Program-made: the position numbers and the translations under genes | The notes under the pieces: model-generated | The model's input: only the letters and a program-made list of their open reading frames with translations | Database searches by the model: none | Told to the model about the DNA's origin: nothing | Shown: one piece after another, positions 8,669 through 54,249 of the stretch | Layout: the number at the start of each line of letters is the position of its first letter | Position numbering within the stretch: the first letter of the stretch is position 1 | From: Polychytrium aggregatum | Lineage: Eukaryota > Chytridiomycota > Chytridiomycetes > Polychytriales | Reading direction: 5' to 3' | Assembly (NCBI RefSeq): GCF_025602895.1 | Contig: NW_026516210.1 | Span: forward strand, 186,001 to 250,000 | Length of the DNA: 64,000 bases

Positions 8669-11600
8669 TCACAATGGGTTTTCGTCGTGCAGGAAGTGGC
8701 TCAAGAAGATCGTTGCCTTGGTCGTGAAAGAGTCCTTCTCGCCTCTTCCCAGGGACGGCTGGGTCGCCGCCACCCCTGCCTCGACTGCGAGAGCGTTCTT
8801 TGCAGGGCTGACGGTGGCCGCACCCACTCCCGCCGAGCCGTAGAACAGCGATGCAGCCACCGAGAAGATCCCCGATGACCGAGCTGCGGCTTTCCGTGTT
8901 GGGGAGAGGTTCGGCGATGCACCGAGAGCGAATTTCTTGGATCCAGCATCGGCTTCGGCCGCAGGCTTGAACAGCACCGGGACAAAGACTTGCCCTTGAA
9001 GCGAGGCATTAACATGTGCGTGAGCATCGCATACGTCAGCGGAGACTGTCGGGTGGGATGCCAAATTTGCCATTTTCTCGGCGTCCGTCCTTTCCCGACC
9101 GACACTTTTCCGCGGGATGTGCACTCCGGGTTCCGGAAGCATCGGTCGCAACAGAGCATGGATGAATACATACCAAGCTTATCGATCGTAATGGTCCCTG
9201 CCGGGCTCTGCTCCTTCAGCAACAGCCGCAGCAGCTTGACAAGCTCAACAAAGGCCAGCGCATGGACCTTGGGGAGGTACTTTCCCACAGCTTCCTTGGA
9301 GCTGCGGAAGGCGGCATAGTTTTCGAGGACTTGTCCGACCAACGGGGATGGGATCACTGGGACAGCCAGCGAGTCCAGGAATGTCACCAGTGTCTCGGCC
9401 ATCGAGTGCACGGCGATATCCTTGCCTTTGCGGAAGATGTCTCGGGAGTCTGTCTCGGCGCTGGCAACAAACGGCTGGCCCGTTTCCAGACACAGTCGGA
9501 TAAAATTGCTGACCTCCGAGTCGCCAAAGGACGTAAAGACATTTTCCTGCAGACACAGGCAGAGGTTAGCGCCAGCTGCACTTCCTCGGTGATGCACGAG
9601 AGCCATCGGGATTAGGCTTACCACTCCAAGTGCGTGCTCGGACAGAAACCCGATCATCCGCGTAAAAACCAGAGGGAGCGCAACCGCCTCGTCCGCCGAC
9701 GCCTCGATTTGCTCGATTTCGCCCTCGGAATCGATCTTGCTCATGAGGATCTTGCAGTCTTGGCTGTTGAGCTCGCGGATGGGGCGGCTTTCGATCCGCG
9801 AGAGAAGCCGCAGATCAGATCCAAAGCAGCTGGCGTGCCAGGTGCCCGTCACGTTGAGAAAAGTGTCCTTGCCATTGACCGTGTGCAGGATCAGAATATC
9901 ATCGAGCGAGTCCTTGCCAAAGTTCAGTTCCTCGGCGATCTTCTTGTTGACAATCACAGTGATGTTGACTTTGATCTGATTTCCAGGCAGGAGCATGCTC
10001 GAGGATGGGCTGATGAAGCACCAGGGCTTCGACGGCGCCGAGCTGGGAATCTTGGGGGCAAAGCTGTACTTGGCGATGACCTGCATGGATCCACCCGCAG
10101 CTGATCAGTCCCGCGGGTTTGTGTACTAGCAACCAACGGCTCTCCAGCATCCTGCGCTTCGGGCCAAGCGCAGATCCGCTTTGCGCAGTATGTCCGTCGC
10201 CTGTACTAACCTGTCCGCGGTTCTCGATCACAATGGATTTGGCTTGGGGCACCAGGAATCGAACGTTGTCAAACACAATCTCGTTGGTGCTGACGTGTAG
10301 ATCCGGTATCGATTCGTTCTCCAGCTTGTCGAGCTCGTGGATCAGCGCAGTGCGCGTTTTGACGAGTTTTTCGTTGACGATAGACCGGATCTAAACGGTC
10401 GGCCCGCCGAGAACACATCAGCACACCATATTCCATACCAGAATCGATTATACCGGCCGCAGCCTTACCTTGGCCTGGAAGAGCGCCATGACGGGCTTGT
10501 GGTCGCTGAGCGTCAGCGCCATGCACGATTTGTACCAGAGCAACGAAAGCCACTCGGCGTCGTCTCGGTGCAGTGGATTGCTGTGCCAGAGGATCCGATC
10601 GCACCACGATGGTATGCGCTTCTTTTCACTCGAGTCAAAGTTGGATGTTCCAATGTCGTACTTGTATGACGGCGGAAACTTGATCGAGCCCTCTTGGAAG
10701 GTTCGGAACACCTTACCGGCAGCCATTTGCATGCGGAGCTGGGCAAGAGGCGAGGATTGGAGCAAGTTAGCTGAGGCGTCGACGGGAAGAGCAAGACAGC
10801 GCTGCAAGGCGTCTGCTTGAAGAGTGCAAAAGCAGATTCATGGAAGGCACTGCATCGAGCACCGCCTTGACGCCCTACCTGGTCGTAGATGAGCAGCTCT
10901 TCGTACTCTTCGCTATCCAGCAACTTGCGCGCGACAATGTCGCCAACGCCGATGCGATAGTTCAGGTCACCGACCCAGAACAGATGGCTAAGCACGCAGT
11001 CCGAGGTCAAGAGATGACAATTGGTAAGCGGTGGTGGTTGCGTCCATATGATCGCGCCATTGTGCAAAGCACTCCATCCCTGGCATGCCATTGCTGGAAG
11101 CAGTGCTGCATCCCGGGAGCTGCATCTGGTACATCCAGAAGTCGGGAAGCGCTCAAGCATCCAGCTCAGCTGATCGTGCACATCGTGCACATCGTGCATC
11201 GGATAGACTCACTCGCAGTCGAATACTGTGGCGCCGGTTGTTGATGTGATGGGGCTTGCAACAAATCCACTCGTTGGCGACGTTACCACCTCGAGATCGT
11301 CCGCAGAGTCGCTGTAGCCAGCAACCCACGGATTGGAATGCATGTAGTTGTAGTAGGTGCTGTACTTTGATTCAGCCCCTTGTGCAAACAGAAACAGCAT
11401 CCGTTTACAGATCTCGGCGTAGTCTTGGTTTCGGCGCGCCACCTGGTTCGTGTCGGCGGCAAGGTGGCAGTTGACGAAGCAGAGATAGGAGTCGTAGAAA
11501 CGGAAACGCACACCGACGCCGCCTTTGTTTCCCTGTCCCGAGAGATTACGCCCATCGTTAGCACCAGTCCCGTGACAAACGCATGCCCGCGATGCCATCA

Positions 11601-13745
11601 TTCTCACTCGCCCTTTCAGGACTGCCTCGCCACCCATCAGAGAACGCTGTACGGTACCATTAAACCGAGGATGCCCGTTCCCACGACTTCGGTGCTGATC
11701 TCTGAGATATAGTCCAGGTGCTCGGCCTTGACAAAGACAGCAATCAGCAGCGTGACCAGCTGCTTACAGGCAATCTGCCAGGTTTGATCAGGATTGAGTG
11801 TGAGTGTACGTGGTACATCAGTGGACTTGGTACATCAGTGGGCTTGGAGTATAGGACCGATCTTCGATGAAACCGAGTTGGGCGGCCAGCAGATGCGTTA
11901 CCTGCACATAGAGTCCCTTCCCGATTGTCTGTAAGATGGCATTTGACCACATATCGCTCTTGGACGAGTCTGCGACAATGTAAGCCTCGGTGCTCAGATC
12001 GAGCTCTTGCAGCCTGTCAATGATGGCGTGTCGTTGTCAGAACTGGATCCAGTGTGGCACGACTGTCTTGATGCTGCGAGCCGTAGTCGCTCAAGCGAGC
12101 TTATGCAGAATATCTCCATCAAGCCGGTGAAGCAGAATTTGGGTTGCAGAGAGTTACCCAATCACGTAAATATCAGGTTGCTCATCGTCGCTGGTCTGAA
12201 GCCACTCCAAGAGAGAACTCGACGGATCCTTGCCGTTGATGTTCCATGTGCCCATGAAGATCCTGGGTTGATTCAGCGTCCACACGGCCACAGACAATTG
12301 ATATCGAATGAACGAGTGTAGCTTTCAAATGCACGACACATAGATAGCCACCGGCGCCGGGCGTCCTCGCGACCATCAGACAGCGTTCCATGCACACATA
12401 CCTGGCATTGGTATACTCCGAAAACACATTCTCTTTCTCTCTCAAGCGTTGCGAGAGCCAGGCATCCTTCAGGTGCTTGAGGTTGCCCGTAAAGGCGTCG
12501 TCGCTGGTCAGGAACGGGTTGGTTCGTCTCTCTGCAGCGGCGGATATGAGACTATCAGCTGTGCTGTCACATTATCGTCGGAATTGAAGCTCGGCCCGTA
12601 AGCAGTGGACACACATCCAACATACGTGCGTCCGGGACCTTCTCTGTCTCGCCTGCAAGGTGGATTGTCGAAATCTGGTCAGTACTGGCGTTGAGAGGGA
12701 CACGCTCCGAGGGCTTGATGCCGAGCCATCCGAAGCCAGCCCGCACCAGACTCCCGCTTGGAGATTAGGTGAACCCTACCTTGGACATATTTTCCCTCCG
12801 CAATGTTCTTTGCATATACTTCGTGCCAGGCGTGCGACGCTCCTCCGCGGCAGTAGTTGTTTTGCCCTTTGAGAATGCAAGCAACAACGAATGAGGACCC
12901 GGGCCAGGCACGCCAAGATCACGACGGATGGTTTCGCTGGGTGATGCGTGAGGCGAACGTACTGCAGGTTGACACGACGCTCTGGAGCTCTTGTACAAAA
13001 GTCTGGACGGCATCGGTGTTCTCGGAGGCCATAATGTACGGCTTGTCGCTCCCGCTCTGGAAAGTGAGCTCGTATTCTCCTGAAGGGGGTCATCATCGGG
13101 AAAACATTAGCGAAACCAGCCATAGGGACTGTGCAGAGACTCGGTGGGCCAATCCAATGTGATGACGGGCGTCCGCTTGCTCGCTGCGGCCCACGAATGG
13201 CTTGAATTGCGCTTCTCGGTTGCAAGGCGGCGGCCGCATCGTCCAGCAGACGACAGATCGCAAGACCGTGGACAAGCTGGGCTTACCGATTGAGAATTGA
13301 AAGTCGGTGAGGACAGGAAGCGAGGCTTCAAGCTCCCATTGTTGGACCTCCCGCGCTGCAGGAGCCGAATTGTCGTTGTCGGACCATTCGAATGCCTGGT
13401 GCTTGCGTGCCGACAGAACAAAGAGACTGCATATCGGCGCATGAGCCGAACGGCCGCTCCGGTTAGCTCGGCAGTGCTGGTCTCAGCGTCGTCCTGCCGC
13501 AGACCGTTGACAGAGATTTACTCGCAGAGACGAGCACGATGGCAGCAGAACGAGCCGGGCGCTTGTTGCGGCATCCGGTGTCGACAACGCTCCTACCAGG
13601 ACTCATCGCCGCCGCTGTCGTTAGTGATGATGGCCACCAAAACGCTGCCTGATGGCTCTCGGGTCGTAGGTGACGAGAGGATCCGAAGCTGGACTGCCGC
13701 CCGGCAGAACTCCGTGGGCAGGAGTATGGGCGCTATTGCCTCCAT
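8669..13745 (-). CDS. OCRL: OCRL/INPP5B-type inositol polyphosphate 5-phosphatase (PH - 5-phosphatase - ASH - RhoGAP)
   Basis: Sixteen minus-strand exons (13745-13597, 13426-13287, 13079-12963, 12866-12780, 12652-12626, 12531-12402, 12262-12158, 12013-11902, 11774-11658, 11532-11213, 10987-10879, 10738-10469, 10390-10211, 10080-9622, 9546-9174, 8994-8669) join in phase to 1006 residues. A PH-like domain spans about 1-135. The phosphatase starts near 217 with [11 protein letters not shown], then [29 protein letters not shown] (435-446), PSWCDRIL (514-521) and the catalytic SDHKPV (549-554). An ASH/immunoglobulin-like domain (about 562-720) and a RhoGAP-like domain (about 730-930) complete the OCRL order. 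Such enzymes remove the 5-phosphate from PI(4,5)P2 on Golgi, endosome and cilium-base membranes and bind Rab and Rho GTPases. Intron phases agree at all 15 junctions. It is the closest paralogue of the gene at 16787-21002. Confidence 0.93.
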
Positions 13746-14310
13746 CGTTCCTTGGCGAAGCGAAAGCGTTGGTGTGTGCGTGCAGAGACCGTCAGTGGGC
13801 TTTGTCGGACGCAGCCGCCTCGATCTGCTCCACTGGAGCAGCAGCAGCAGCGGCGGTGGCGGCGGCGGAGAATCTCAGGGATCGGGTCGGCGGGGTCGGC
13901 CCGGTCGGTCGGTGCAGGCTATTGTTCGCATACCTCAGATCGCAGTTTTCGATGATGGACGACGAAGACGGATCGAGGGCGAATCGAAGCACTGCTGTCC
14001 TTTGTTGCTGCGCGCATTGTCGGTGCCGAGCCGGCCTGTGCGACACCCGCCCGGGGCGTGGTGAGGAGTGGACGCTGACTGCATTCCTGCGATCTCAGGA
14101 CAATCTGCATCTATTCTGCGCCGACACGGACAGCATGGATAATCTCAGATATAGCAGCGACTGCCCCCACCCTCGCTCTTTGCACACAAGTCATCGGGTA
14201 ACGGCCCAACAGCATCATTCGAGCTCATCGGAAGACGAGGGATGTGGGCGAGACTGGGATGCATACGAAAGTTTTGGGTGCCGTCGCACTCAGGGCGGCA
14301 CTCGTATGCT
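13746..14310. other. Upstream region of the OCRL-type gene
   Basis: About 565 bases between the OCRL-type start and the stop of the voltage-sensor gene. There are short open frames on both strands but none with family features or matching splice phase. CAG/GCG-rich stretches occur around 13840-13870. Confidence 0.35.
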
Positions 14311-16090
14311 CTACTTGATCGAGCGGATGCTACGGGTCTGTCTGGTGTTGTCCATGGTCTCCTTGAGGGCTTCGAGGCGGAGGGTCAGCTCGACCTTCTC
14401 CTTCTCGAGCTCCTTGATGTACTGCTGGAAGTTCTCCTCGACGGTGTCGCCGAGACGGGCAAAGATACGGATGACTCGCCAGATACGCAAGATAATGATG
14501 AGCGCGACAATGTCGTCGGCAATGCCAGAGCCGCGCAGCACCAGCTGAAGGAAGAAGGAAGTCACGATGATAAAGGCTGGAGAGCAGGGACGGGAATGGC
14601 ATCAGTATCAGATACAGCCTGTGGCGGATGTAGCTCGGTTCGGCTGGTCACGCAGCCACACCGAACTGATTGCAACGAGCTGATTGCAATGGCGACGTTG
14701 CTCTGGATCACACATGAGCATCCTCCAAGGATAGCAGGCGCTAACAGGACTGCAACGCAACGACAGAGCAGTGGTGGCGTCGTCCAGAGTATGCAGGACT
14801 GCTTACCGTCAAAGGCCTCAAGCCAGTCGTCATAGTAACGGCTGACACCGTAGGCGACATACTTCAGGTACACTTCGACGACGAAGAGGCCCAGGATACC
14901 GATGGAAGCCCACTCGAGCCAGACAAACAGGGGATGGAACACATGCTTTGGATCCGTATCGGCTTCGGTGAGGAGCGAAATGAACAGCTCGAGGATGACT
15001 ACGAGGATGTCAAAGACAATGAGGGATATGATGATCTGCTGGCTCTGCTTGCTTTCGAAAAAGTCAATCAGCCTGGAGCGCTGGACCGACCAGAAGCCGA
15101 GCGAAACGTCCTGCTCCTCGACGTGGATGACCACAGAGGCTTGCTTGGCAGAGATGTGCGCCTCGATGATGGCCTCAAAGTCCATGTCAGGGTTGTTGGT
15201 GGCGATCTCGAGCTGCTTCTCGACATCGCTGATCTGGGCCTTGAGCTCCTTGTTCTCCTCCTCAAGCGTCTCGATGGTGGAGTCGAATTGGGACTGCACG
15301 GCATCGATGACGGCCTGGGTAAAGTCGACGATTCTCCACACACGGAGCGCAATCAGAAGGACGGCAGCGTCGCCGAGGATGCCACGCAGGACGACAGCGA
15401 GGGTGAACGAGACCACGGTGACGAAGCCTGGTGCAGGATGGGACGGAAAAGGTGTGAGGACATGTCGTTGGGCAAGGTCGGCGGCAACGGCAACAACCCA
15501 ACCCATGCATGGGCGACTCGGCGGGCTGATTGCCACTGGACCAGCAGCATCGTTTCGCTCCGGCTCGTCGCCAAGTCGGCAGCGATTGCAATGGCAGGAG
15601 TTGGGCAGGGAGGTGCCCAGGGCCAAAGCGAGCCCCTGCTACGATGGCAGCCACCGAGCCCATGCAACAGGTACTTACCATCAAAGAATATCAAAAAGTC
15701 GGTGAAATAGTACTGCGGACCACAGGCCACCACACGGGCGCAGAATTCACCGAGAAGGAGCCACATGGCTGCATCTGAGATAAACTCCATGACAATGAAC
15801 GCAGGGTGGTCGATAGCGTCCTGCTCTTCCTCCTGGTACAGCATCGAGAGCATGAGCTCGATCGTGACCGAGACCATGCTGACGACGACCAGAATCATGA
15901 CCGCCAGTCGAACCCGCGGGCTGTCGAGGAACTCGGCAAGCTGGGTCCGCCACGAGCTTTTTGTGCTTGCGGGTGCTGGAGGCTTGTCAGCGCTGTTCTC
16001 GGGCAGCAGAGGGGTGTCTTCGTTGACGACATCGGCGCCGGCCGCCAAGACAGTCTCGTTGGGATCTGGGCGGGTGTCAGCTTGGGCCAT
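14311..16090 (-). CDS. Tandem voltage-sensor-domain protein: two Hv1 (HVCN1)-type proton-channel domains in one chain
   Basis: Three minus-strand exons (16090-15679, 15427-14807, 14576-14311) give 432 residues. After a Pro/Asp-rich cytoplasmic N-terminus (1-58), repeat 1 has S1 about 60-84, S2 about 102-124, S3 about 139-152 and S4 about 160-174 (ALRVWRIVDF), then a coiled coil at about 180-212. Repeat 2 has S1 about 268-290 (LIVFDILVVILEL), S2 about 309-330, S3 about 345-359 and S4 about 368-384 (ILRIWRVIRIF), then a second coiled coil at about 388-420. The RxWRxxR S4 and the coiled coil after S4 are Hv1 features; known Hv1 has one such unit and dimerises through its coiled coil. Repeat 2 keeps the selectivity Asp (D277) and three S4 arginines (R375, R378, R381). 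Repeat 1 has Ser71 and Asp172 instead. There is no pore domain or phosphatase. Proton conduction by repeat 2 is inferred. Confidence 0.85.
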
Positions 16091-16786
16091 TGTGGGCGGA
16101 AACGGGCGGGGGCAGACTCTGGAGAGCGAGAAGCGGACAGCTGGCTCGGCCTCGGCGCTGGCGAGGGACAGCAAGCGGAAAGCGCAGGTGGGAGAGGTGA
16201 CTTTTGGCCTGTGGTGGATGTCGCCGCGCTGAAATGCGTCGGGCAGGCGCGCTTGGCGGGGGAGACCCGGCTGTGGCGACATCGAGGGTGGGCTGCCCTG
16301 CCAAGGGCGCTGGCAGACAGACTTGCCTGGCTGACTCGCCGTCGCCGGCTGGGGGGTTACGGCAGCAGATGGCGGCAGATGGCAGCAGATGCCAGCTGCA
16401 CTCGGTGCGGATGCGAGTGCCGGGAGACATCGGCAAGCAGAGCTCAAAGCACATGAGGCATGTTACAGGCGATCCAGTAAAAAACGGTGCACCCTTGATT
16501 TTGACCATTGCTCAAATAGTTTGTTACCCAATACCATCGCGCTGAGCATGACCATTCAGTGCTTTGAATCAAGGACGCCTCTGTGGGTATTGCCGCCAGC
16601 CCAAAATGCGCTGCAATAAATTCGCCATGTGTTCGATAGAGACATGCTGGACAAACAGCTGTACTCCGGCCTGACCCGGCGCTGATGCCAGAGAGGGGCT
16701 GTCCCGTTTCTTTCTGGACAAACTGTATTCAGGACCCGCCTCAAAATCGCCGGGATTGGGCCGCGCCCGCTGGAACAGGGGAGACA
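16091..16786. other. Upstream region of the tandem voltage-sensor gene
   Basis: About 700 bases between the voltage-sensor start codon and the stop of the second 5-phosphatase. A GGCAGCAGATGGCAGCAGAT-like direct duplication lies near 16360-16395. No exon is supported. Confidence 0.35.
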
Positions 16787-19700
16787 TCACCGTATCGAGT
16801 TCCGAATGTCCTGCGAGAACTGCTGCACCTTCTTGGCCATCATCTGGGATTTGAAACAAGGAGTGTTCGCAGCCATGTTAGCTCCGCAGATACACGACCT
16901 GGTGTGGCATGGGCATGGGCATGGGCATGGGCACTGCGCCGTGTTCCCGACTCACCTTGAGCGTCTTCTTGCGACCGATGGTGCCGTCTCCATCGTTCAG
17001 ATGCTGCGTCCGCAGGTCGTCTTCTATGCGCCGCAGCAACTGCTCGTTGAGGCTGCGCACTTTGATGTCAAACAGCGCCATGACGGGCTTGTGGTCGCTC
17101 AGGGACAGGTCCATGCACGATTTGTACCAGATCGACCTGAGCCAGGGGTCACCACTCTCGTCGTATTCCGCCGAGTGGAGCGGATTGCGGAACCACAGGA
17201 TGCGGTCACACCACGCCGGCGACCTCTTCTTCTCGCTGGCAACGGTTGGAAGGGCATTGCTATGTCAGGTAGCAGTCGCACACAAACAGGAGCCAATGTC
17301 CCAAAGCGTTCGTTCGGCGCACACATTTACCTGGTATCGTATCGCGATGTGCCAATGTCAAACTTGTATGTCGGCTGGAACACGATCGGGGCCTCGTCAA
17401 AGTCGTGGAAGACTCGGCGACTCGTTCTCTCGTGCGTCAGCTGGAGATCAGACGAACATGTATCGTTAGCCGCGTCCTGAGAGGCGCTCATGGCCCAGAA
17501 GCCAGCCAAAATGTGACGCTGCAGATGTTACTGCCGCCGCTTTGTCGCATAGTCGCATAGTCGCATAGTCGCATAGTCGGAGTGGCATCTACGCAGACGC
17601 TCCTTGACATCCTGCCACACGTTGCCGGTCTGTCAATACCTGGTCTCTGCAGAGAATCATCTGAAAGTCGTTGCTCTCGATCATTTGCTTGATCTCTTGG
17701 TCGTCGAGCTCGATGCGATAGTTCAGATCGCCCATCCAAAATAAGTGGCTGATGTGAAAGTGCAGGTTGTAAATCAAAGCACTCAGTAAGCATGGATCGC
17801 CCACGAACAGTAAGCCAGCCCACATGCGAAGCGATGTAGACTTGTGCTAGGCTGTGTCAACAGCCGCGATGAGATGGCTTACTCGCAGTCAAAAATAGTA
17901 AAGATGGACTCTTGCACTTTCATGTTAAGCGAAGGTGCAGGCTTGGGGTTTGTTTTCATTGTATCGTTGTGCGAGTCCGACAGGCGCTGCCGCGACCGCC
18001 GTCGCTCCATACTCTTGGTCGGGCTGATGACTGGGCTGTCCTGGGACACCGCGGCATCCTCACCAGCACTATCCTGCGGTATTGGGGGGTAGGTGTATCT
18101 TGGATCGAGCGGAACCAGGCCCTCTTGGCTCCTGCTGATCCGAAGCGAGCTTGGAGGCACATTCGGGTTGATTTTGTCATCTTCAAAGTACTCGTCCTCG
18201 TCCTCGACTTCATCCTCGTCCTCTTCGTCCTCTTCATCAAGGTCGTCAAAGTCAAAGTCAAAGTTGTAGACCAAATCATCGTCGTCATCGTCGCTTTTGC
18301 CAAGGCTCGTGACGAGTTCATGCTCGCCCAGAATCGGGCTGCCCTGGATGCTCCCGGCGTCGTCGCTGTCATGCTCCTCTTCTTCTTGCAGATTAGACAG
18401 GCTTGTGTTTCGTTCTCGTGGGGGTGAGCGGATCACTGGGTTCTCGATCCATCCAAATCTGGCACTGGCTTGGAGAGACGAGCTCCGAGCGGGCGCGATG
18501 GGCTCCTGGCGCACCGACGACACCGACGACACGCGGATGGGAGGCATTTCGGAGCCATATACTCCAGGATCGTTGGCAAAATGGTCCAGATCCTTTGGTC
18601 CTCCGGCACCCAGCTTGACGTCGTGCAGGTTGCAGACCCAGGGTCCGAATCCCCCGGCACTGTAGTCACTCCGGCTCGGCGGAACCGGGTTGAGAAAAGT
18701 CAGCCGCTTGCATATTTTCTTGTAGTCGATCTTGCGTGCGTGCATCTGCGAGAGGTCCGAGGCAAGATGGCAACTGACGAAGCAAAAGTACGAGTCCTGG
18801 AACCGAAATCGGAGGGCGACGGCGCCCTTGTTGCCGAGCACGCTGAGGACACCCGTGCCAATGCCGTCGGAGCCCACTTCGCTGATAAGAGGGCGCAAGT
18901 CCACCCGGATGTAGCAGACGATGAAGAGACCAACGAGCTGCTTGGAATCGACCTGCATCAATGGGAACGGAGTGAATTAGTTCCCAACTGCCCAGTACCC
19001 GATCGCCAAGCACACAATTGCCAAGTACCCGATCGCCAAGAACACAATTGCCAAGCACACGACTGGGTCACTGGCGTTCCGCTGATACAGCCGATAACAC
19101 CGGCTAAATGCTACGACGTCGTGAACAGAGGCAGGCAAGACCCACCCGTGAGTAGCCGGTCCCAAGCACCCGTTCGATGGCATCAAGCCACTCGTTTGTG
19201 CGCTTTGAATCGACCCGGTAGAAGGCTTCCTTGGCAAGATCCATTTCTTGGAATCTGTAGGCAAAAGTTGGTCCGCCGTCAGTCGCACCGGCGGACAGTC
19301 GCACCGTCGATCGCTGCGCATGTGCCGGTTCACATGCAACCGCAGTTGCTCTGTGTGGGGAACAGGCTTGTATGCAACCGCTGTGGCTGGCACTGTGCTC
19401 GATTCCTCGTCAAAGCGCCCCAGGACCTACCCGAGTACATATATATCAGGTTGATCCGCTGCAGCGGTCCTGAGCCACGCCTCCAGCGGCTCCGAGGCGG
19501 CCCTGCCGTTAACATTCCACGTGCCGACAAAGAGTCTGGATGCGATTCGAGTGGTGTGACGGATACGTCAATGTGAGGTACTGGGTGAGTTAGTCCAGAA
19601 TGTGCTGCTGGCCGTCGCCTTGCGTTGTTATCAGCCACGTTCCTGTGGACCCGACATAGAACTCACTTTCGCCGATAAAACGTCGAGAACTCGCGCTCTC

Positions 19701-21002
19701 GCTGCCGAAGTTCTTTCGCAATAGCTGTGATGGTGCGATATCGGTTAGAATGTCTCCGGGGCACACACAGTGCACCGGCCAATGAGAGGCGGGAGACTGG
19801 TAATCACCGACAGCGACCAACGACAACTGATGACGACTGGCGATGGCTCACCCGAGTTGGACAGCTGCCTCTTGCTATGCGGCAGAAACCGGATATAAGA
19901 CCCGGCCCAGAGGTGAGTGTCGCCGAGGTCCGACTGGCTCTCTAAGGCCAAGGACGCAATACCGTGGAGCAGCAGGAGTCAGCTGAATGATGCGAGACAG
20001 ACGCCAAGCCAAGCAGGCCGTCGCTCATGAATGGGTGCATGGCCATTGCAGCGGCGGTATGCTCGTCTATATCCCTGAGAGTCGCTCCCGGCACGCCCGT
20101 ACTTGCGGTGTTTTGGAAGATCCTGAGCTCTGTCATGAAGCTGGTGGACTCATTGCTGCTGGTGAACTCAAACTTGATTTTCTGGCCCTGGCTGACAAAC
20201 GTAACTTGCTCTATCATTGGAGGAAAAGTCAGCACCATAGTCCAGAGCATGCAAGAAGCAAGGGCGTCCGGCCGATCACACAGGCCTTGGAGGAATACCC
20301 ACCAACCGACCGGTTCAGCGGATGCACAGAATCTGTGATGGAAATACGCGGATCGAAGGGATGAGTAATGACGACAGATGATATGCAGGCTTCACTGGCC
20401 TGGAGGCGTGCGTCCAACAAACCATGCGGCAGACGCACTTTTGACCCTGAGGGACGAGGTTATGGGGATAACGGCCTTGAGTCGAAACTGGCGCTCGGCG
20501 CTCTTGGGGTTTCTAAAGTAGAAGATGCTGACCAGAGCAAATCGGTTAGCGGCCAGTGGGTCAGGTCAGCGGCCAGCGAGCGATCTGGACAGAGTCCAAA
20601 ATGATGTCGATATGCGGATAGTTCGGTTTCGACGGAGCCACCGATAGACTCGAAGGCGATGGCGGACAAGCAGGTCGTCGACGACTTTGGAGCGAGCGAC
20701 CGGCCACAGCCTCTGGGCACAGGAAGGACGACTGAGCACAGGAAGGACGACTGGGGACGACTGGGAACTCACCAAGCCTCGGCCTGGGCCATGTTTCCGA
20801 CAATGGCCAGGGCGCCCCGCTTCGGAAGACCGGACCGGCGCACCTTATTGGCAAAGATACATGCATGGCATTTCTCTGACTCTCTCAGGAACGACGTGAC
20901 ATGTGTTTCGAGAGCCGGCGGGGTGGTCGGTTTAGGCGCTGGCGGCGACTGTGCAGTGAATGTCGGTGACCGGGCGTTCGAGACGGTTTTGCGTCGCAGC
21001 AT
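16787..21002 (-). CDS. Second inositol polyphosphate 5-phosphatase (PH-like - 5-phosphatase, without ASH/RhoGAP)
   Basis: Thirteen minus-strand exons (21002-20773, 20527-20439, 20332-20303, 20210-20103, 19941-19852, 19724-19667, 19535-19431, 19254-19146, 18952-17883, 17748-17640, 17440-17331, 17235-16956, 16843-16787) give 814 residues in one frame. An N-terminal PH-like region runs to about 150. The catalytic domain begins near 202 with LFVGTWNVNG, then GFQEMDLA, GNKGAVALRFRF, HLFWMGDLNYR (631-641), SPAWCDRILW (708-717) and LSLSDHKPV (746-754). A roughly 255-residue low-complexity insert (about 363-618) splits the catalytic fold. It is Ser/Pro-rich with an Asp/Glu run encoded near 18180-18290. 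The protein ends about 60 residues after the catalytic motif, so it lacks the ASH and RhoGAP domains of its neighbour. Several intron positions match the paralogue. Substrate is presumably PI(4,5)P2 or PI(3,4,5)P3. The small exon at 20332-20303 is the least certain. Confidence 0.88.
16908..16933 (+). repeat. 6-bp tandem repeat (GCATGG)n in an intron
   Basis: About four copies of GCATGG lie in the last intron of the second 5-phosphatase gene, next to the donor site of exon 12. Confidence 0.8.
17544..17577 (+). repeat. 8-bp tandem repeat (TCGCATAG x4) in an intron
   Basis: Four perfect copies of TCGCATAG inside the intron between exons 10 and 11 of the second 5-phosphatase gene. Confidence 0.9.
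18986..19066 (+). repeat. About 30-bp imperfect tandem repeat in an intron
   Basis: Roughly two and a half copies of a 30-bp unit containing AGTACCCGATCGCCAAG and ACACAATTGCCAAG. They lie in the intron between exons 8 and 9 of the second 5-phosphatase gene. The ACCCGAT core resembles the 7-bp unit of the 61.5-kb array. Confidence 0.8.
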
Positions 21003-52540: not shown

Positions 52541-53823
52541 TTAGAACAGCAAATCGTCTGAAGCATGCCAAGAGCATGGATTAGTGGGTGCAGGAGCGTT
52601 TCAGGCCGGCATTTCAGAAATACCTTGGACAGGCTGAGCGGCACCGCCTACCTGATCCCTCCATAGCCTTGTCGTTCGAACTGTCAATGTCCCTTGAAGC
52701 GTCATCAGTCGCATCTATGATGTTTAAATCGTCAGTATGATCACTGCTCTTGCCCAAAATGCGCGAGCCCACCGACTTGTTCGTCCTAGGCCAGGCCAGA
52801 TCCGCCCAGAGGAACCAAACAGGGCTGACCGTCTCCAAGACCAACCCAGCCTGTCCAACTTGCGGCTGGCGATATACAAGACGTATGAAATATCTGGGAC
52901 AACCAACCTTCCATATCGTAATCCTCGTCGGCATCGACCCGGCTGGCGGTGACGTCCGCTGCAGCCTGGTGCGCTGACAGAGCAAGCGTAGGGTTCTGGA
53001 TTGTCACGCTGGCAGTGGGGAGACTGGCCGTCTTTGCCAGATTTGAGGACGACTGCAACGATGCGCCTCGATTCGCAGACGACGACGACACAGATAGCAG
53101 GACTGAGGAGGGCTTGGTGACGTTCGCACCGGGCTGATCAGGCTTTGGAGGTAGCTTGTGGTGGTCGACCTGCAGCTTGGATCCAATCAGGCAATACTTT
53201 TCGGGGGGCAGACGGATGCCAAACTTTTCAGGAACAGGGGGCAGAGGGATCGAGTTTTTCTTGCGGGCGAGATCGGCAAGGAACTTTGCGGCGACCAATA
53301 TCGAAGCGTTGCGATCGAGTCCAATGCGTTTGGAGGAAGAGTATGATATTGAGGGTGTGGATCCAGTGAAGAGAGCGTCAGTAGAGCCGGCATACAGCCG
53401 CAAGCTATGGCACCACGACGATCCAGGGGGCAGCGATGGGCTTCGAGGCAGCAGACTTACGTCTCGGGAGGGCAGGTTGACGAATGAATGGGTCACCAAC
53501 CCCTGCACGGCCAGCTGGACATCGGACTTGTCAATGTCGGATCGCCGGGCATGGTCGCTGAAGACCTGTGCATCTGCCAGAATATCCAGGGTGTAGCGAT
53601 GGATGAACTCGAGCAGCTGTGTGGTGACCCGCGGATCGTAGTCGTCCAGATCCATGGCCTGGAGAAGCAGCGAGACCAGCTTGGCATCGCGAGGAGCTCG
53701 CTTGGCATCGCCCAGTTCCTGCGGGATCGCGGCAGACGAGGGGGTCTCGAGCGGCGCATGGAAGGTCGCTGGAGGTGCCGATGAAGATGTGGTCGCTGGC
53801 GGTGCCGAGGGTTGTGCTGACAT
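52541..53823 (-). CDS. TAF9: TFIID/SAGA subunit TAF9 (histone-fold TBP-associated factor)
   Basis: Four minus-strand exons (53823-53461, 53283-52908, 52714-52652, 52557-52541) give 272 residues. After a Ser/Ala/Pro-rich N-terminus, the histone fold spans about 37-115, with KLVSLLLQAMDLDDYDPRV, LLEFIHRYTLDILADAQVFS and IDKSDVQLAVQ. The TAF9-specific extension follows: FLADLARKKNSIPLPPVPEK then IRLPPEKYCL, close to the RLPPDRYCL of animal TAF9. TAF9 pairs with TAF6 in TFIID and SAGA. The C-terminus is Ser-rich then acidic and ends DDLLF from a 17-base last exon. The second intron acceptor (GCCGCAAAG) is the only one keeping both the frame and the conserved FLADLARKKN block. The last two small exons are less certain. 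Divergent from the gene at 54250. Confidence 0.9.
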
Positions 53824-54249
53824 GATGGCCGGGAGCGCTGGATGATGGAGGCCAGAGTCGAGATCGGCGACGCTCTGGGCCAAAAGCCAATCCACGCGAC
53901 CAGGGCGGATGTGCGAGCCGTCCCCGCTTCTGCTCGGAAATCGTCGGCTTCGTTGCCCTGCGTCCCGGACAGCCGCAAATCGCATCATCCTGCGCTGGTT
54001 TGCCATCGAGACGGCCATATCCCGCCGACGCCGTCCCTGATCGAGGCTGCTGCGTATCGACCTCGGCGACAAAGCCCATCGGCTGTCGCTGCTCGACGAC
54101 GGTGCCGCTTGCCTGCACCGCAACCCCTTGCCAGAGGCACCATCTGTCTGCCTCCTGCCTCCTGTTCCTGCCTCCTGCTTCTTGTTCCTGCCTCCTGTTC
54201 GTTACCACGGCGCCGCTATCTTCCTCCATTTGCTCTGCGCATCTGATCC
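53824..54249. promoter_or_regulatory. Divergent promoter between TAF9 and the Ser-rich gene
   Basis: 426 bases between head-to-head ATGs. A CCTCCTGCCTCCTGTTCCTG-like pyrimidine repeat occupies about 54147-54200 just before the plus-strand start. No TATA box is evident. Confidence 0.45.

Follow-up and report, generated by a model that had tools for sequence, protein, structure and literature searches.

Within the window, that is, the whole stretch of 64,000 nucleotides that was analysed and whose positions serve as coordinates here, the minus strand from 16090 to 14311 holds a three-exon gene model whose product of 432 residues carries two Hv1-type voltage-sensor units in a single polypeptide. 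Hv1 is a coiled-coil dimer with a separate pathway in each protomer. We tentatively favour the reading of this gene as a natural tandem Hv, a covalent pseudo-heterodimer in which unit 2 would form a voltage-gated proton pathway and the degenerate unit 1 would probably be its regulatory partner. Hv1 channels have one unit per polypeptide, and two units are found here in one frame; because they share one polypeptide, we regard the protein as an Hv1 variant and not as an ordinary member.

The gene model was built from candidate splice positions. Of the twelve combinations tried, two kept the product in frame, its only stop being the terminal one. One of these two (16090-15679 / 15427-14807 / 14576-14311) has canonical GT-AG borders at both introns and encodes exactly 432 residues, which bears out the three-exon model put forward in the first-pass annotation and is the form that we infer to be spliced in vivo. 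The start ATG stands in the context ACAATGG. Neither intron length (251 and 230 nt) is a multiple of three, so that retaining either intron would shift the frame, and the introns sit at homologous places of S3, where they split codons 138 and 345 behind the first base (adjoining Asp137 and Asp344, respectively). The features of the gene are listed in the table.

Table. Features of the tandem Hv gene and of its predicted product, in the order of transcription (window positions).
Feature	Positions	Strand	Content	Basis
Exon 1	15679..16090	-	Residues 1-137, with base 1 of codon 138; N-terminal tail and, of unit 1, S1, S2 and first part of S3	Splice model, translation
Unit 1 voltage-sensor core	15309..15952	-	Residues 47-177; spans intron 1	Pfam Ion_trans 3.7e-07; PDB Hv1 2.3e-13; alignments
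Intron 1	15428..15678	-	251 nt, GTAAGT...CACCAG, phase 1, in codon 138, S3 of unit 1	
Exon 2	14807..15427	-	Unit 1: remainder of S3, then S4 and coil; linker; unit 2: S1, S2 and first part of S3; one frame	
Coil 1	15192..15308	-	Residues 178-216; core heptads F-I-L-N-L-I-V-L	Heptad shuffle test
Linker	15081..15191	-	Residues 217-253, from coil 1 to S1 of unit 2	Open frame, codon score
Unit 2 voltage-sensor core	14449..15080	-	Residues 254-387; spans intron 2	Pfam Ion_trans 2.7e-09; PDB Hv1 2.3e-14; alignments
Intron 2	14577..14806	-	230 nt, GTAAGC...CTCCAG, phase 1, in codon 345, S3 of unit 2	
Exon 3	14311..14576	-	Unit 2: remainder of S3, then S4 and coil; stop TAG 14313-14311	
Coil 2 and C terminus	14314..14448	-	Residues 388-432; core heptads F-I-L-K-L-L-L-M, in register with coil 1	

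Exon 2 physically joins both units: between S3/S4 of unit 1 and S3 of unit 2 its frame stays open. Codon use was followed along the gene with a score trained on 10 other channel segments of the genome (1118 codons) and compared with 3000 random reads. In frame, the score lies between 0.32 and 0.51 over unit 1, coil 1, the 37-residue linker, unit 2 and coil 2, values reached by 2, 1, 16, 2 and 4 of the 3000 random reads, respectively, the linker itself scoring 0.34. The score is negative in all three frames of intron 1 and of intron 2, and it gives no support to the N-terminal 46 residues, whose value is reached by 612 of the 3000 random reads.

The hydropathy peaks of each unit are consistent with S1-S4, and the two units, each with an S4 that carries RxWR, were found as first described (R166-V-W-R169 and R375-I-W-R378). 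In a search of PDB sequences, unit 1 matched 3wkv (mouse Hv1 chimera) at 2.3e-13 and 5oqk (human Hv1) at 1e-4, the next non-Hv match standing at 0.079; the whole protein, through its unit 2, matched 3wkv at 2.3e-14 and 5oqk at 1.5e-9. Because the 3wkv chimera includes non-Hv parts, among them a foreign coil, the 5oqk values are the safer evidence for Hv1. The top calcium channel reached a total of 3.7e-8 in the whole-protein search, a value made up of several weak stretches of which the best single one stands at 0.024. Pfam Ion_trans, searched on the separate halves, was detected at 3.7e-07 in unit 1 and 2.7e-09 in unit 2, with only 6-107 and 8-106 of its 241 positions covered, and a scan of the protein against NCBIfam gave no match above cut-offs. 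The S5-S6 pore domain is absent: each S4 is followed by a coil, the protein ends at residue 432 and no hydrophobic pair lies between the units.

A larger known channel class containing both units, which the first-pass annotation had named as one of the cases that would overturn its reading, was considered and rejected on the grounds that no S5-S6 is found between or after the units and that, in the calcium-channel match of unit 2, each single stretch shown is weak. As for the multi-repeat channels (Cav, Nav and two-pore channels), these have S5-S6 after each sensor, where a coil and a linker are found here. The best PDB match of each unit to Hv1, the missing S5-S6, the Hv tryptophan in S4 and the coil that follows it support, at the level of sequence, the earlier assignment of both units to the Hv1 type. 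The two cores share 43 of 130 residues (33%), with z = 24.0 against 200 shuffles, and the halves match each other by BLASTP with E = 4e-25. This identity, together with the shared place of the S3 introns, suggests an internal duplication, probably of a one-unit gene that already had its S3 intron.

The two units differ in the residues they keep, as judged from alignments with the human Hv1 row, whose numbering is used for comparison. Unit 2 is the more conserved unit, since 44 of its 125 aligned residues are identical to those of human Hv1 and 33 of 125 in unit 1. At the place of Asp112 in S1, unit 2 has Asp277 and unit 1 has Ser71; residues 60-84 of unit 1 include Glu78 as their sole acid, so that its S1 holds no Asp and no other mid-S1 acid. 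The place of Phe150 in S2 is occupied by Phe319 in unit 2 and by Leu112 in unit 1. At two other S2 positions, Glu153 and Lys157 in human numbering, the first is kept in both units (Glu322 in unit 2, Glu115 in unit 1) and the second is Lys326 in unit 2 and Arg119 in unit 1. In S3, Asp174 is kept in both (Asp344 in unit 2, Asp137 in unit 1), and the second Asp (human Asp185, or D185) is lost in both (Gln355 and Ala148, respectively). S4 of unit 2 reads R-I-W-R-V-I-R (Arg375, Trp377, Arg378, Arg381) and so contains RxWRxxR, whereas that of unit 1 reads R-V-W-R-I-V-D (Arg166, Trp168, Arg169, Asp172) and does not; Ala384 of unit 2 stands at the place of the mammalian Asn. The initial description of both units as complete thus holds for unit 1 as far as its four segments go, and fails for its residues, as the S1 Asp, the S2 Phe and the third S4 Arg are missing. 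We also observed, at the codon of Asp172 (window 15324-15326), that unit 1 has gained an acid in S4 at the place of the third Arg and has lost one in S1 (Ser71), which may reflect a moved acid or plain decay.

A coiled coil lies after each S4, as had been proposed: in a simple heptad test, 1 of 5000 shuffles scored as well as coil 1 (residues 178-216) and 5 of 5000 as well as coil 2 (residues 392-430). In a simple g-e' charge count over 30 residues of each coil, the homotypic pair of coil 1 scores +2 and that of coil 2 scores -2, while the mixed pair of the two coils scores +2. At the same core a position, coil 2 has Lys and coil 1 has Asn. Homodimers of coil 2 look disfavoured because of this Lys and of the score of -2; the homodimer of coil 1 scores the same as the heterodimer, so that pairing between molecules can also be envisaged. 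Pairing of coil 1 with coil 2 within one molecule would therefore be the economical reading of the heptads, without being forced by them.

The same gene is present on a second contig of the assembly (C414), and window 10812-19780 is near-identical to C414:113000-122000. Over 9,001 aligned columns, the two differ by 10 substitutions and one 32-base indel; a single substitution is coding, and it is synonymous. The 32-base insertion, at 17560, consists of four 8-base units. We consider that C414 probably represents the other, uncollapsed haplotype. Several other channel matches are likewise paired, with equal scores on two contigs. No other Hv1-like locus was detected by a six-frame, exon-by-exon search of the 64.7-Mb, 418-contig assembly: the 432-residue model had 6 matches (E <= 1), as did the mouse Hv1 chimera row (E <= 10), and each of these 12 falls at the tandem locus on its two contigs. 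A diverged second Hv gene could be missed by this search, because the mouse query finds the tandem gene itself weakly (8.2e-6 at best). A search of the assembly with PF00520 gave 29 matches. Inspection by eye in six frames of 20 of these loci, several of which are pairs on two contigs, found RxWR in an S4-like context in none; two of the other nine are exon 2 of the tandem gene on its two contigs. RSWR occurs elsewhere in a sensor-like frame at two PF00520 loci (L008 and L009). No relatives were confirmed in viral contigs or in prokaryote genome contigs.

Regarding the host, the assembly has 11 matches to the fungal transcription factor domain PF04082 and 8 to the radial-spoke family PF04712, each of them found in 0 of 14 prokaryote control genomes, and these matches point to what is probably a fungus with flagellated cells. 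In the window, the tandem Hv gene lies between two inositol polyphosphate 5-phosphatase-like genes (8704-11763 and 16881-18976), all three on the minus strand. The downstream neighbour is OCRL-like, with Exo_endo_phos2 pieces and an ASH domain, and the upstream neighbour has Exo_endo_phos2 pieces. Farther away, an open frame on the minus strand (52789-54201) matches the TFIID 31-kDa subunit at 2e-38.

In the explanation that we prefer, one intron-bearing gene would have been duplicated internally, giving two Hv1-type units in one polypeptide. Upon depolarisation, S4 of unit 2 (R375, R378 and R381) would move outward past Phe319, and one of its arginines would pair with Asp277, leading to the opening of a proton-selective route. 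No Asp-Arg filter of this kind would be possible in unit 1; this degenerate partner would be held to unit 2 by parallel coil 1/coil 2 pairing and by the 37-residue linker, and it would serve as a built-in second sensor or as a brake in an obligate pseudo-heterodimer. All that concerns the folding of the protein, the passage of protons through unit 2 and a regulatory part for unit 1 is predicted here from the sequence. Conduction of protons by unit 2 is likely, although not certain, since the second S3 Asp of Hv1 is missing; its absence from both units would count as a point against simple function. Under one definition, cooperative gating means that neither Hv1 protomer conducts until both have moved (PMC5938591). 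The covalently linked dimer proposed in the first-pass annotation seems a good structural reading, based on the coil heptads and on engineered precedents: its Hv1-type units are indeed fused in one frame, but an equal status of the two is not supported, as unit 1 is without the S1 Asp and the third S4 Arg.

Other explanations concern either the architecture of the protein or its conduction. That the model wrongly merges two distinct genes or mRNAs, each for an ordinary Hv channel of its own, is extremely improbable. Translation from Met219 in the linker might in principle yield a product limited to unit 2, but exon 2 is free of stops between the units, with coding-like codon use through the linker, no in-frame stop codon follows coil 1 to end a protein limited to unit 1, and the second contig has the same arrangement; we rejected a mistaken joining of two genes on the basis of the open exon 2, its codon use and the second contig. 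It is likewise conceivable that the tandem protein dimerises again through its coils and brings four voltage sensors together, for instance by a coil 1 homodimer between two molecules. Both coils are strong and the coil 1 homodimer, at +2, equals the heterodimer; on the other hand, the coil 2 homodimer, at -2, would place Lys against Lys in the core, and the tether should raise the local concentration for pairing within the molecule, so that we judge an assembly of four sensors to be unlikely.

As for conduction, a voltage sensor without a permeation pathway has a precedent in HVRP1/TMEM266, which has an Hv-like S4 and a coiled coil and gives no measurable current (PMC4148356), and neither unit would conduct if the tandem protein were of this kind. 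In favour of such a sensor, the S1 Asp and Asp185 are held to be selectively conserved in Hv1, their stabilisation of the activated state being predicted as necessary for channel activity (PMC5065317), and the second of them is missing in both units (Gln355 and Ala148). However, HVRP1 has Val at the place of the S1 Asp (PMC4148356) where unit 2 has Asp277 together with RxWRxxR; Asp185 mutants still conduct, with an opening threshold shifted strongly towards positive voltages and an unaltered proton selectivity (PMC5065317); and the assembly yielded no further Hv candidate. A protein in which neither unit conducts is unlikely. The opposite case, a covalently fixed and functionally symmetrical Hv dimer in which both units conduct protons, appears quite improbable to us. 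Unit 1 does retain R166, W168, R169, Glu115 and Asp137, and a water-wire mechanism in which the S1 Asp is not required for proton transfer itself is described as equally compatible with the data (PMC5065317). Moreover, by analogy, the loss of the S2 Phe need not stop conduction in unit 1 and would not alone make it dead, because the F150A subunit still carries current in a linked human Hv1 dimer (PMC4568520). Nevertheless, proton selectivity is lost in S1 Asp mutants (PMC4429351, PMC5065317), and conduction through both units is less likely because unit 1 has Ser at this place with no other mid-S1 acid and an Asp for the third S4 Arg. Channels with another residue in place of the S1 Asp let anions through, except with Glu, which is wild-type-like, and Val, which is non-functional (PMC5065317; see also PMC4429351). 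Since the Ser of unit 1 is a change of the type that makes human Hv1 anion-permeable, we also considered two voltage-gated pathways in one polypeptide, with protons passing through unit 2 and anions through unit 1, an arrangement that we find very improbable; if it were true, a depolarised cell could release acid and counter-ion through one protein.

Hv1 dimers gate cooperatively, and the influence of one sensor on the other has been probed in linked dimers that were built by hand and bear different mutations. A natural tandem in which one unit is better kept and the other degenerate, as in our preferred explanation, would be the evolved counterpart of this experiment and would show whether a sensor incapable of proton conduction can persist as a regulatory partner. 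It would also offer structural work a fixed 1:1 arrangement of units, and would extend the diversity of fungal Hv proteins past those of one-unit length, in a lineage that probably has swimming cells.

Known Hv proteins of fungi include that of Spizellomyces punctatus, a chytrid. The 25 fungal Hv proteins compiled in PMC7910559 are 183-309 aa long, 227 aa in S. punctatus, which, judged by length alone, would correspond to one unit. Fungi are described as having one Hv per species, with the S4 motif RxWRxxK (PMC10377628), and the section of that source on atypical Hv proteins describes no two-unit protein. The terms 'tandem' and 'two VSD' have 0 occurrences in the main texts of PMC10377628 and PMC7910559, and 'tandem' in PMC5298346 refers to mass spectrometry and to a cited gene-array paper. 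No natural two-unit Hv was found in the open-licence PMC literature among the matches listed (titles and abstract starts), and an unnamed two-unit entry may well exist in protein databases. SlHv1 and AoHv1 (PMC7910559) resemble the tandem protein in their fungal host, in the R.WR of S4 and in their C-terminal coil; the third S4 charge is Lys in these two, whereas it is Arg in unit 2 and replaced by Asp in unit 1.

Animal Hv1/VSOP (HVCN1) shares with the tandem protein an S1-S4 without a pore domain and a coil directly after S4, as well as RxWRxxR and the S1 Asp in the case of unit 2. Unlike animal Hv1, the protein described here has two units per polypeptide, of which unit 1 is without the S1 Asp, the S2 Phe and the third S4 Arg and both are without the second S3 Asp. 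HVRP1/TMEM266 is a one-unit protein. It resembles unit 1 in combining an Hv-like sensor and a coil with the lack of the S1 Asp, but it has Val at this place and keeps its S4 arginines, whereas unit 1 has Ser and has lost the third Arg (PMC4148356). The closest parallel in architecture is that of the engineered linked Hv1 dimers, in which the C terminus of one subunit is tied to the N terminus of the next, wild-type and mutant units can be paired in one chain, and human Hv1 subunits linked by 17 residues give proton current in oocytes (PMC4568520). Those dimers are man-made, with a 17-residue Gly-Ser linker between copies of the same parent unit (PMC4568520), whereas the present tandem is natural and joins, through a linker of 37 residues, two units with a core identity of 33%.
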